A stretch of DNA of 64,000 nt from a gamma proteobacterium HIMB55. Its GTDB lineage: Bacteria > Pseudomonadota > Gammaproteobacteria > Pseudomonadales > Halieaceae. The position numbers and the translations under genes were made by a program. The notes under the pieces were generated by a model. It saw nothing but the letters and a program-made list of their open reading frames with translations. It was not told the DNA's origin and made no database searches. Positions 20,093-32,909 of this stretch are shown piece after piece; the first letter of the stretch is position 1, and every line of letters starts with the position of its first letter. Location: positions 2,066,035-2,130,034 of the forward strand of contig AGIF02000001.1 in assembly GCA_000227505.4 (NCBI GenBank), given 5' to 3'.

Positions 20093-20169
20093 AGGACCAT
20101 AGCTCAGTTGGTTAGAGCGCTACCTTGACATGGTAGAGGTCGCCAGTTCGAATCTGGCTGGTCCTACCA
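20093..20169 (+). tRNA. tRNA-Val (GAC)
   Basis: This is a complete 77-nt cloverleaf. The acceptor stem AGGACCA pairs with TGGTCCT, the D arm is present, the anticodon stem CTACC/GGTAG flanks the loop TTGACAT (anticodon GAC), and the T stem GCCAG/CTGGC flanks TTCGAAT. The discriminator is A and CCA is encoded. The 3' 47 nt are repeated at 29262 and 32829. No terminator follows the tRNA; the recombinase gene follows instead. Confidence 0.95.
20123..20169 (+). repeat. att copy A (within tRNA-Val)
   Basis: This is the 47-nt block from the 3' anticodon stem-loop to CCA of the intact tRNA. Copies B and C each differ at two positions and start at the same CCTTG, which places the crossover near the anticodon loop. 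Confidence 0.85.
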
Positions 20170-20187
20170 AAATTTAGATAAGTCATT

Positions 20188-20203
20188 GATTTCTCGAGAA
20201 ATC
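20188..20203. promoter_or_regulatory. 16-bp perfect palindrome beside the attachment site
   Basis: GATTTCTCGAGAAATC is a perfect inverted repeat 18 nt after the tRNA CCA and 70 nt before the recombinase ATG. It could be an operator for the recombinase or an accessory recombination site. The function is not shown by sequence alone. Confidence 0.45.
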
Positions 20204-20273
20204 GCACCTGCCACGGTGGACACAGAACGCCCTTCTCAGGGTATCGGTCTACTAGCGATTGAAAGAGGTCACT

Positions 20274-21158
20274 ATGACAACATTCAAAGACGTTGCAGAG
20301 GCGTGGATCGCCTCGCGCGAACATGGCTCGGGTTCTCTGGGTCGCATTCAATTCTGGATTGAGCAACTTGGGCACTTACCGATTGACGGTATCAGTGATG
20401 ACCAAGTCGATGATGCTATCTCTGCATTGGTGGCGAGGGGCAAGCTCACTGGTGGTATCTCAGGCGCAGGGAAACCCACTGGACAGCCGCTGGCAGGAAG
20501 CACAATTAACCGCTTCGTATCGACGCTAGGCAGTATTTATAAGTACGCACGCAGACTGCGAGTAATAAAGCGGTCCTACACCCCGCCCACGATCGGAATT
20601 GAAAAATACCCAGAACCAGTCGATCCAGAAAAATACTTTAGGGAAGACGAGGTAGAGCGGCTGATTAAAGTCGCTAGAGTTGTTGATCAAAAGTGGCGGC
20701 GACTCGTACCCATGATTTTGATCGGTTTTCACACAGGAATGCGGATTGGCAACGTTCAGCAGCTCACGTGGTCAGACATCAATTTCGATGACGGCACAGC
20801 TTCTGTATCGATCACCAAAAATGGCACCCCACATATTTCAGTGCTGACGCAGCGTTGCCTTGAGGAACTAGAGAAACTCCCGATGGGGCGAGGCGATGAA
20901 CTTATCTTTGGGAGCTATCGGGGTAACTACCCTTTCCACTATCAAAAGCTTTGGCGGAAAGCATGCAGTGAAGCTGGCTTTCAGGGGCGGACATTTCATT
21001 GGCTACGTCATGGATGTGGCTCTCATCTTGCACGAGCTGGTGCAAGCCAGGCACAGATGATGCAAGTAATGGGACATAAAACCCTCACCGCGTCAGCGCG
21101 CTATATTCATGGAAATGTAGAGGACCGAAAGGCAATAGTTGGGAGGGTATTCAGATGA
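20274..21158 (+). CDS. Tyrosine recombinase (integrase) of element 1
   Basis: This phage-type integrase has 294 residues. The N-terminal SAM-like core-binding domain is about residues 1-110. The catalytic domain shows the first Arg in HTGMRIGNVQQLTW, the H-x-x-R box in FHWLRHGCGSHLARAG, a later His in VMGHKTL and the nucleophile Tyr in SARYIHG. ATG 20274 has GAAAGAGG upstream; TTG 20259 is less likely. It lies 104 bp from the tRNA and points away from it, as in tRNA-targeting islands. No terminator separates it from the tRNA promoter. Confidence 0.93.
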   Translation: MTTFKDVAEAWIASREHGSGSLGRIQFWIEQLGHLPIDGISDDQVDDAISALVARGKLTGGISGAGKPTGQPLAGSTINRFVSTLGSIYKYARRLRVIKRSYTPPTIGIEKYPEPVDPEKYFREDEVERLIKVARVVDQKWRRLVPMILIGFHTGMRIGNVQQLTWSDINFDDGTASVSITKNGTPHISVLTQRCLEELEKLPMGRGDELIFGSYRGNYPFHYQKLWRKACSEAGFQGRTFHWLRHGCGSHLARAGASQAQMMQVMGHKTLTASARYIHGNVEDRKAIVGRVFR

Positions 21159-21748
21159 GCAAATTACCGAAAAAGTCGTATGCAGCTCTGTTTAACACAG
21201 GTGATTTTTCGGTATCTGAAGTCGCAGATAAAATTAGTGAAGAGTTTGAAATTGGGGGCGGCAAGGACCTCATTTCAGCGGAAAATCTCGCACTTTTAGT
21301 CACGGAGCTTGCCTGCGAAAGAATATCTTCTCGCATAGCTCTTATTACCCTTAATCAACCTCCTTTAGACGACCCGCAAGAAGCCCGAAAAACAATTGAT
21401 GATCTGTGCTTCGATCGTTTTGATCAGCTTCTAAAAATATCTAGGCGAACCAAACAGAGCAATGTCGCGAGAGCCACTCATCTACCTGGCTACGCTGAGT
21501 TTGCTTTATACGTAGCCCATGTTCGACTGTTTGAGCGTGACGGAAAGAATCCTGGTTGGAGAAAGCTAGCAAAGCGAGCGAGCGATATTCTAGGCCGCTC
21601 ACCATACAAACGTTCCGATTGGGAGCCCCTCATCACAAAATCCCGTATCGAAAAACTACTACCGTCCTTTAGAGAGGCCACAGAGAAATCAGACTATCCA
21701 TCGCCCGAATACGTCGTATGGGTAACTCAATTTAACTGGCTCGTCTAA
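21155..21748 (+). CDS. Unknown protein translationally coupled to the integrase
   Basis: This 197-residue protein starts with an ATGA overlap on the integrase stop, so the two are very probably made together. I do not recognise a family. It is mostly polar and helical with no membrane segment or signal peptide, and has a basic central part (LLKISRRTKQSNVARATH). The tail contains aromatic residues (EYVVWVTQFNWLV). Coupling suggests a helper or control role in recombination, which is inference. Confidence 0.75.
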   Translation: MSKLPKKSYAALFNTGDFSVSEVADKISEEFEIGGGKDLISAENLALLVTELACERISSRIALITLNQPPLDDPQEARKTIDDLCFDRFDQLLKISRRTKQSNVARATHLPGYAEFALYVAHVRLFERDGKNPGWRKLAKRASDILGRSPYKRSDWEPLITKSRIEKLLPSFREATEKSDYPSPEYVVWVTQFNWLV

Positions 21749-21835
21749 AAAATGGGCGCTCCATAGCATGGGCCGCCCACCTACTCCCCAATACTCCCGA
21801 TAACACCGTGGCTGGTGCGATTAAGGAGATTGAAA

Positions 21836-22066
21836 TTGAACCAGGGAGTGAGGCTGAATCATTTGCGTCCAATCCAAGATTGGTATGAGTTCCACAAGCT
21901 GCAAGGTGGCAAAGTCTTCCCGACGTTTGCCTCTCTGCAGTGGTTTATTAGACAACATCGAAACTCACTTGTTGATGCAGAGGTTTTAATTCCTGGCAAA
22001 GGCAGTCGACGAACACTAGTCACTGCTGAATTTGGTCCCAAAGTCTACGAGATACTCTTTAAGTAG
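21836..22066 (+). CDS. Small helix-turn-helix-like protein of the island
   Basis: This protein of about 76 residues contains FPTFASLQWFIRQHRNSLVD followed by a basic GKGSRRTLVT segment, a pattern seen in small phage and island proteins likely to bind DNA (excisionase- or AlpA-like in size). A TTG at 21836 with AAGGAG 7 nt upstream is the best start; the GTG at 21815 precedes that site. A role as excisionase or regulator is a guess from size and position next to the integrase. Confidence 0.6.
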   Translation: MNQGVRLNHLRPIQDWYEFHKLQGGKVFPTFASLQWFIRQHRNSLVDAEVLIPGKGSRRTLVTAEFGPKVYEILFK

Positions 22067-31638: not shown

Positions 31639-31716
31639 GACAGGAGAAATCTGAAAGTCTGACCATCCTGTTTGTTGCCTGGATTAACAGATCTAAATGA
31701 GAAACGGAGAAAAACA

Positions 31717-32136
31717 ATGAAGCACTTTTTACTAATCATTATTTCGACACTTTTTTCAATGGCTGTAGTTGCTGAGGATCTCACCCTCGAAAAGCGTCAG
31801 CCGGATACTGTGATGAACATGACCTCGCTCACTCTGGGCGACGACGAATCGATTATTAACGCCGAGGGCGACATGGGTGTTTATGGTCGGGTGTATGTCA
31901 CGTTTCGGCTAACTTATGACGAGGATCGTGCCAGTGGCACCGTCTACGGCTCTGGTCGTGGCGCTGCTGGTAACGAAATTGCCGTAGGTAACTTCTCAGG
32001 TCGCTGGGAAGTTATTGACGGCACTGTAACGATGCGGCATGTGGTGGCATTGAATGATGGCACCTTTAATCTCGACATCGTCACATTCCGACCCGTGGAC
32101 AGAGAGCTGATTGTTCGAGCTTACGTGCTCAAGTAA
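31717..32136 (+). CDS. Small exported beta-rich protein
   Basis: This 139-residue protein has a signal peptide (MKHFLLIIISTLFSMAVVAED) and then alternating beta strands and glycine turns (YVTFRLTYDEDRASGTVYGS). ATG 31717 has GGAG upstream. No family is recognised. It lies 78 bp behind the duplicated-domain gene and 61 bp before the SnoaL-like gene, and is probably cotranscribed with both. Confidence 0.6.
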   Translation: MKHFLLIIISTLFSMAVVAEDLTLEKRQPDTVMNMTSLTLGDDESIINAEGDMGVYGRVYVTFRLTYDEDRASGTVYGSGRGAAGNEIAVGNFSGRWEVIDGTVTMRHVVALNDGTFNLDIVTFRPVDRELIVRAYVLK

Positions 32137-32197
32137 GCGCCGAGTAGATCAACCTGAGGTGGGGGACTACCCCCCACCGTTATTTAAGGAGACAGAA

Positions 32198-32698
32198 ATG
32201 AAATTGATTCACAGCACCATACTCTCCGCCATGGTAGCTATGGCCCCATTGACCGTTTACGCAGGCCATCATGAGTCGGAAAAACATGCCAAACCTAATC
32301 TGAAAAATGCAGTTGATCAGCTTATGGACGCCTTTGAAAAAGAGAGTGTCGCAATGTTCGATGACGCTATGGCAAAAGATTCCGATATGGTGACTTTTGG
32401 CACCGATGCATCTGAGCGATGGGTTGGATTCGACGAGGTGAGAGACTCCTTCGCAAAGCAGGTTAGCGCCTTCGAGGTGGAGAGAATTGACACAAAAAGC
32501 CAAGTCATAAAAACCTCCAACTCTGGTGAGGTTGCGTGGTTCTCGCAAATAGTGGACTGGCATATTTCCAACAACGGCAAGTCTCAAACAGTACCCGGCA
32601 TCCGCGTCACGGGAGTACTAGAGAAGCGCGGTGAACATTGGAAAATTGTCCAATTCCATACCTCGGCCCCTGTTCAGGGACAGGTCGTTGAGTACTAA
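32198..32698 (+). CDS. Exported NTF2/SnoaL-like (DUF4440-type) protein
   Basis: This 166-residue protein has a signal peptide ending PLTVYAGHHES. The mature domain matches the NTF2-like pattern (AVDQLMDAFEKESVAMFDDA, GFDEVRDSFAKQ, VLEKRGEHWKIVQFHTS). AAGGAG lies 7 nt before ATG 32198. It is probably a periplasmic ligand-binding or enzymatic protein. It is the last gene before att copy C. Confidence 0.75.
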   Translation: MKLIHSTILSAMVAMAPLTVYAGHHESEKHAKPNLKNAVDQLMDAFEKESVAMFDDAMAKDSDMVTFGTDASERWVGFDEVRDSFAKQVSAFEVERIDTKSQVIKTSNSGEVAWFSQIVDWHISNNGKSQTVPGIRVTGVLEKRGEHWKIVQFHTSAPVQGQVVEY

Positions 32699-32828
32699 CC
32701 TTTAACTACAGAGTTGTCTCACACGCCATCGATATCCCCCTGATTCCAATGCAAATTGACTCCGGACTTGTGAGCCTTGGGCGCCCAGACATGATAGCTA
32801 AGGGTGGTGTTGTGGCGAGTCCTGTGAG

Positions 32829-32875
32829 CCTTGCCATGGTAGAGGTCGCCAGTTCGAATCTCGCTGGTCCTACCA
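32829..32875 (+). repeat. att copy C: degenerate tRNA-Val 3' fragment
   Basis: This 47-nt block matches copy A at 45 positions. The changes are A to C in the anticodon loop (GAC becomes GCC) and G to C in the T stem, which leaves one T-stem pair mismatched. It has no 5' half and is not a functional tRNA. Confidence 0.88.
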
Positions 32876-32886
32876 AATATAAAAGA

Positions 32887-32909
32887 GCCCGCCGTAAGCG
32901 GGCTTTTTT
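32887..32909 (+). terminator. Terminator after att copy C
   Basis: GCCCGC, loop CGTAA, GCGGGC and then T6. It begins 11 nt after the CCA of copy C and has the same GCCCGC stem as the terminator after copy B. Confidence 0.85.

Follow-up and report, generated by a model that had tools for sequence, protein, structure and literature searches.

Serial insertion at a tRNA-Val gene as the probable origin of a cassette island in Luminiphilus

The 64,000-nucleotide window analyzed here comes from the gammaproteobacterium HIMB55 (contig AGIF02000001.1, positions 2,066,035 to 2,130,034, from a 2.74-Mb genome in one contig); the genus of this host and its relatives is taken to be Luminiphilus. It is likely, with a probability that we would put near 0.8, that the stretch behind a tRNA-Val(GAC) gene in the window is an additive island built by serial site-specific insertion at that tRNA. 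The observations that carry this reading are repeated blocks of the tRNA 3' half, the ends that adjoin them, a scarcity of recombinases, sharp cassette boundaries, and the transfer of one cassette between species. Most segments at this locus in the genus keep their ends and contain no recombinase.

ARAGORN finds a single tRNA in the window, the intact tRNA-Val(GAC) at 20093-20169 on the forward strand, which would be the insertion site. An earlier sequence-only reading had claimed that its last 47 nt occur three times, and all three blocks are present in direct orientation on the forward strand, at 20123-20169 (copy 1, no mismatches), 29262-29308 (copy 2, two mismatches), and 32829-32875 (copy 3, two mismatches); 100 dinucleotide shuffles gave a mean of 0 matches. 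In copy 2 the mismatches together exchange one T-stem pair and so compensate each other, while copy 3 has an A>C change in the anticodon (GAC to GCC) and one broken T-stem pair. The same kind of right end precedes both distal copies, and terminator-like hairpins lie 3' of both. The G+C content passes from 0.52-0.56 at 15-20 kb to 0.435-0.517 in 1-kb windows within 20.5-32 kb. The distal copies resemble displaced old tRNA 3' ends, and the earlier suggestion of serial insertion is well supported.

The first segment, element 1 (20170-29308), has the layout of a tRNA-targeting element, with a tyrosine recombinase next to the intact tRNA and the 3' repeat at the opposite side. Its left end (20170-20258, forward) aligns with ten other ends of the same kind and holds the sub-terminal motif TAAGTCATTGATTT at 20179-20192; its right end, TGTCTTGGTGTGTACCTGGAG at 29241-29261, matches the right-end pattern without mismatch and leads into copy 2. 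The recombinase, or integrase, is encoded at 20259-21158 on the forward strand (PF00589, 1.7e-25), the start common to aligned relatives being the ATG at 20274. It matches general phage integrase families, and R162, K187, H247, R250, H273, and Y282 are conserved without exception across the five sequences aligned, of which two are the same; we take these residues to be the tyrosine recombinase catalytic set. Of three PF00589 matches in the genome two lie outside the window, and the third (G000:C1:2086668-2087150, about 20634-21116 of the window; G000 is the window's own genome) is the sole match in the stretch, as the sequence-only reading had proposed in placing a recombinase beside the intact tRNA only. 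Element 1 looks complete and would be the latest insertion; judged by its ends, it could excise by exchange between the tRNA and copy 2.

The second segment (29309-32875) fits the earlier picture of two integrative elements only in part. It has a right end (32808-32828, forward, with one mismatch to the pattern that falls in the block), and its start, where a left end would be expected, is occupied by the terminator-like hairpin at 29309-29350. Between them, at 29377-32698, Pfam recognizes two SnoaL-like domains among five small genes and no recombinase; relatives of the last two genes adjoin a right end in G018 (contig C34). The sequence-only reading had left it undecided whether this segment was stranded or could be mobilized by the first recombinase. 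Stranding is favored, since copy 3 and the tRNA are not the same within the presumed overlap, and the segment is probably the remnant of an older event. Exchange between the tRNA and copy 3 would be impeded and could, where it did take place, spoil the tRNA. Immediately before copy 3, at 32770-32799, GTGAGCCTTG, a 10-nt interruption, and CATGATAGC resemble a decayed extra right end and block.

The variable region does not close at 32909, where the earlier finding stops, but extends over about 17.8 kb to around 38015, and DNA alignments with G035 and with G001 both resume at 38016. At E 1e-40 the gene at that position is found in 22 of the 57 genomes, mostly at lower identity, and is therefore not a strict core marker. 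On the left, the genes up to phytanoyl-CoA dioxygenase are common to G035, G001, G019, G030, G066, G017, and G013; behind this common flank the content differs among G000, G035, G001, G019, and G030, the pattern of an additive flexible island. Behind the tRNA-Val of G015 and of G009, the 13 and 11 kb retrieved contain no second block; the flanks in both genomes differ from those of the window.

The two stacked elements proved to be one instance of a far wider phenomenon. When the tRNA was used to query 58 genomes (the window's own, 36 of the same genus, and 21 of other families), extra 3' blocks were found, among the matches listed, in many of the 36 other Luminiphilus genomes. Most aligned blocks are preceded, immediately 5' of CCTTGACATGG, by a conserved non-tRNA right end, approximately YGTCCNNRCGTGTYKTGGYG. 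With up to two mismatches, this right end plus block occurs at 54 sites in 23 of 57 genus genomes, and the reversed pattern at none; the pattern misses sites, as G030 scored 0 despite interrupted blocks in its array. The 35 segments measured between successive tRNA or block sites, on 17 contigs, have a median length of 7.0 kb (range 1.4 to 31.8 kb), and decayed blocks may lie hidden in the longest. All five T-stem pairs are kept in 35 of 45 extra blocks in the genus, with alleles GCCAG, GGCGG, CCCAG, CCCGG, and a few others, which fits displaced ends of once functional tRNAs. The same pattern implies that the host tRNA can have its T-arm replaced when an element inserts.

In a minority of blocks (two in G017 and one in G030) the right end is a different one, TGTGTACGTTTGTGYAYCCGTCTATATTGAC, and given this difference a second kind of element may use the same tRNA-Val site. 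A differing right end of the form TGTGTACGTTTGTG...TATTGAC was seen at 9501 and 19948 of locus L045 (G017, contig C28) and near 9064 of L039 (G030). A further variation, absent from the window, affects the T-loop of tRNA-Val blocks, into which a stem-loop of about 90 nt is inserted; it is exemplified by L101:5213-5308 and also present in L104, L107, L108, L097, L098, L111, L102, L118, L115, L039, and L040. An alignment made to examine the insert took in 15 of the 54 right-end sites, and in 10 of these the block clearly resumes behind it. The 15 copies are of two sequence types that have the first hairpin in common, with compensatory changes, and in a search of ten Luminiphilus or related genomes plus the window's own, array contigs hold 14 of the 15 Luminiphilus matches. 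Rfam at its gathering score reported only a tRNA in six loci, several of which hold such inserts. The insert may be a small mobile hairpin element that targets T-loops.

The left ends are of several kinds. The recombinase-side type of element 1 was found at 11 sites, six of them behind full tRNAs, and a T-rich type like TAAGCCTCTGTTTTT at 10 sites, two of them behind full tRNAs, with at least five further T-rich-type ends among 19 sorted as 'other'. Terminator starts account for 21 entries: six behind full tRNAs, 14 behind blocks, and one that is actually an interrupted block (G066_C23_14526). Among 63 Luminiphilus sites, less six with under 70 nt behind the block, the sub-terminal motif is present in 16 of 37 non-terminator ends and 0 of 20 terminator ends, compared with a frequency of 0.0007 in random 30-nt windows; as the motif was defined after inspection of the ends, these counts are descriptive. 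An ABC-transporter cassette of G035 and an unrelated cassette of G001 resemble each other over about 100 nt at the T-rich end.

Recombinases are rare by comparison with these ends. Five of 57 genomes have a recombinase with 48% or more identity to that of the window (G000, G035, and G005 of 37 genus genomes; G066 and G077 of the other 20); many of the genomes are incomplete drafts in whose gaps further recombinases may sit. G077 is L. syltensis NOR5-1B, G005 an uncultured Luminiphilus metagenome-assembled genome (MAG), G035 a Halieaceae MAG, and G066 a Gammaproteobacteria MAG; in all four the recombinase occupies the same position next to the tRNA. Its sequence is identical in G035 and G066, in which rpoB is 88.9% identical. 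G020, G034, and G028 retain a short N-terminal remnant next to the tRNA, and the gene is cut by the contig start in G059 and broken in G001 (contig C7). In 27 block-bounded segments from nine genomes (G000, G035, G028, G017, G001, G020, G032, G034, and G030), PF00589 was detected only in the first segments of G000 and G035, leaving 25 without a tyrosine recombinase; the serine resolvase family PF00239 was found in none of the 27.

The clearest evidence of movement comes from an ABC-transporter cassette present in G020, G034, and G028. Its copies are 98.65% identical between G020 and G034 (5709 nt), 99.4% between G020 and G028 (4291 nt), and 98.8% between G028 and G034 (4391 nt), against rpoB region identities of 82.3%, 83.4%, and 92.1%, respectively; in G028 the copy lies partly on contig C28 and partly on C4, with the junction between the two presumed. 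In 300-nt windows, G020 and G034 are 90.7% identical in the first and then 97.3-100% up to the window that contains the block end, and G020 and G028 are 98.3-100% identical. Upstream of the tRNA, identity is 32-67% (100-nt windows with more than 10 aligned bases), and behind the block it is 43-44% (last 150 columns). All three copies have the same truncated recombinase, which places the crossing between species after the loss of the recombinase. These comparisons make recent transfer of this cassette between species clear, and transfer of one further cassette likely: that of G028 and G017 is 84.4% identical over 6429 nt, above the rpoB value of 79.4%. Two other shared cassettes are near the core value (G035-G001, 98.1% over 2630 nt with rpoB at 97.5%; G035-G017, 95.8% with rpoB at 94.3%).

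The mechanism that we propose is as follows. Circles that bear a copy of the tRNA 3' half would be inserted by a tyrosine recombinase that has a relative in a phage satellite, with exchange in the anticodon stem-loop (CCTTGACATGG), a position suggested by where identity starts. The incoming copy would rebuild the tRNA, and the host's old 3' half would be left at the far end, behind the right end of the element. Segments without a recombinase would be mobilized by one from elsewhere, acting in trans or, within a composite, in cis, and passage between cells may take place in phage particles.

Several findings weigh against serial insertion as the full account. These recombination steps, excision of an element included, are deduced from sequence comparison, and no circle or excision is among the observations. 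The check proposed with the sequence-only reading, an empty tRNA-Val site in close relatives, did not succeed: among the relatives searched, no genome with both window flanks and no insert was found, and support came instead from the comparison of single cassettes across species. Segment 2 has no left end recognizable by comparison with the aligned left ends, so the CIME pattern (discussed below) of lost integration genes with both ends kept is not seen there. No block was found at the right edge of the 5.1 kb at 32876-38015, the origin of which is unexplained. Segments with terminator-type starts inside arrays, which occur twice in G035 with identical sequence (L037 and L038; G035 159323 and 169780), are not explained by simple stacking; one idea is that they come from circles, carrying native DNA, that arose when the tRNA recombined with a block downstream of it. 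Finally, the cassettes shared by G028 and G032 (79.8%, rpoB 80.5%) and by G028 and G034 (90.6% over 17 kb, rpoB 92.1%) are no more alike than the core, and may be vertical or old.

A more specific form of the insertion reading, which we hold only tentatively, is that the tRNA-Val locus works as an integron-like platform, with the tRNA as the site and operon cassettes shuttled in trans by a rare, satellite-derived recombinase, and with T-arm alleles recorded along the array. It would cover recombinase-free cassettes with dedicated left and right ends, and insertions that each swap the T-arm allele of the host. An integron proper was considered and rejected, the repeated site being the tRNA 3' half and the cassettes not being bounded by attC. 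A plainer possibility, which we regard as somewhat doubtful though worth serious attention, is accretion of cis-mobilizable elements (CIMEs), in which recombinase-less cassettes are decayed and move only in cis, in a composite circle with an intact neighbor. The truncated recombinase at the left end of the ABC-transporter cassette indicates an origin by deletion, with integration genes lost and both ends kept, and in G000 and G035 the recombinase-bearing element is tRNA-proximal and could carry its neighbors along. However, the ABC-transporter cassette moved bounded by the tRNA and its own block, with different neighbors in each genome, and the recombinase-free T-rich left end stands directly behind the tRNA in G001 and G032 and is common to different cargoes. 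How recombinase-less units continue to move is one of the weaker points of the accretion model.

It is unlikely that cassettes were exchanged by homologous recombination in the flanks or between block copies, and not by site-specific insertion. Similar cargo does occur with different ends, the likeness of the G028 and G017 cassettes stops 59 nt before the block in G028, and terminator-type starts hint at rearrangement; yet identity in the ABC-transporter cassette falls away right at its two boundaries, the tRNA and the final base of the block, and the homology available would span only about 77 and 47 nt. That the distal fragments are ordinary duplications or pseudogene debris is very improbable: copy 3 is decayed and segment 2 has no left end, but 23 of 57 genomes have this same non-tRNA right end in front of the block, a recurrence on which chance duplication was rejected, and the copies differ by paired T-stem changes.

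The remaining genes of element 1 give some indication of its origin. Two small genes without family assignment (21155-21748 and 21815-22066, forward) complete the recombinase module and have the same order in G035. A 102-aa protein (22486-22794, forward) matches an unknown phage family (phrog_15261, 5.5e-17) and, second to it, a terminase small subunit (phrog_2538, 1.3e-5), the latter being the only hint of packaging or capsid-interference functions; a similar open reading frame (ORF) of 94 aa is present in G035 and in G066. The cargo at 22791-29132 consists mostly of small genes of unknown function, with one T5orf172 domain and one TerB-like stretch. Pfam and phrog searches of the ORFs of the element recognized no head or tail gene, and a Pfam scan, made without a relaxase-directed model search, found no relaxase or conjugation genes in the 17 ORFs of segments 1 and 2. 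Beyond copy 3, the 5.1 kb at 32876-38015 contain genes for an aldehyde dehydrogenase and for GMC oxidoreductase, TauD-like, and DsbA-like proteins, and are absent at this place in G035 and G001.

Outside the genus, where our view of the spread rests on recombinase scans and the 21 genomes of other families, a scan of named genomes found relatives of the recombinase in a Rhodocyclaceae MAG (53% identity) and two more at 24-28%, and a viral scan found L165, at 49%, together with three further contigs that match part of the protein at 31-41%. Phage and plasmid records with a match numbered 310 and 2356, respectively, and in every one of them the relative was below 60% identity. In both close relatives (L161 and L165) the recombinase lies directly 3' of a tRNA-Gly(GCC). 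L165 (IMG/VR 3300028895_000809) has the full tRNA-Gly(GCC) and an identical 47-nt block 9.1 kb on, with a similarly worded left end and a different right end; among its genes are one for a primase/helicase and one for a terminase small subunit, along with major head protein and tape-measure genes, so that by content it is a phage satellite. That a helper phage might package the window element is no more than a suggestion. G055, of another family, has an ordinary single element at tRNA-Val with the recombinase near the right end. In L. syltensis NOR5-1B (L154), a 25.5-kb element at the same tRNA-Val carries the defense genes HmaA, HmaB, and HmaC (4986-15452). An isolate with the recombinase exists, in which mobilization in trans is directly testable.

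If this reading is true, one tRNA gene is a docking site common to related species, mostly for packets without a recombinase of their own, and would illustrate one way in which operons and defense genes pass among ocean bacteria. We found no description of this Luminiphilus locus in the literature searched, which covered few subscription journals. According to the excerpted text, the ssrA islands of Dehalococcoides are likewise tandem, bounded by 3' repeats of one RNA gene with a conserved motif before the repeat, and 15 of 31 have no integration module; those islands involve a serine recombinase and the tmRNA T-loop in another phylum, whereas here a tyrosine recombinase and the anticodon stem-loop of tRNA-Val would be used (PMC3146451). 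CIMEs and their accretion are established, and share with the present segments the lost recombinase, retained attachment ends, and tandem structure; as described in the passages at hand, they concern conjugative elements, whereas Pfam recognized no conjugation gene in the window segments, and recombinase-less units are the large majority of the segments examined here (PMC5704250). tRNA cassettes in additive islands have been described for marine bacteria, with the same tRNA target, added gene cassettes, and direct repeats of tRNA fragments; the ends and cognate recombinase, not defined in those passages, are both resolved here (PMC10872708, PMC7771536, PMC4119200). Tycheposons, compared by description in extracts of the sources, have a tRNA boundary, a tyrosine recombinase, cargo, and a marine host in common with the present elements, which differ in their stacks of recombinase-less units (PMC10872708, PMC11389934). 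Phage satellites, as partially covered in PMC11389934, are resembled by the satellite-like L165, the nearest complete relative outside the genus, and by the window module in its terminase-like gene, but no head or tail gene was recognized in the window element. In summary, tandem tRNA islands are themselves known; what the present analysis adds are the resolved ends, the few recombinases against many cassettes, and the link to satellites, with defined ends, a cognate recombinase, and a sharply bounded cross-species cassette found together in one genus.

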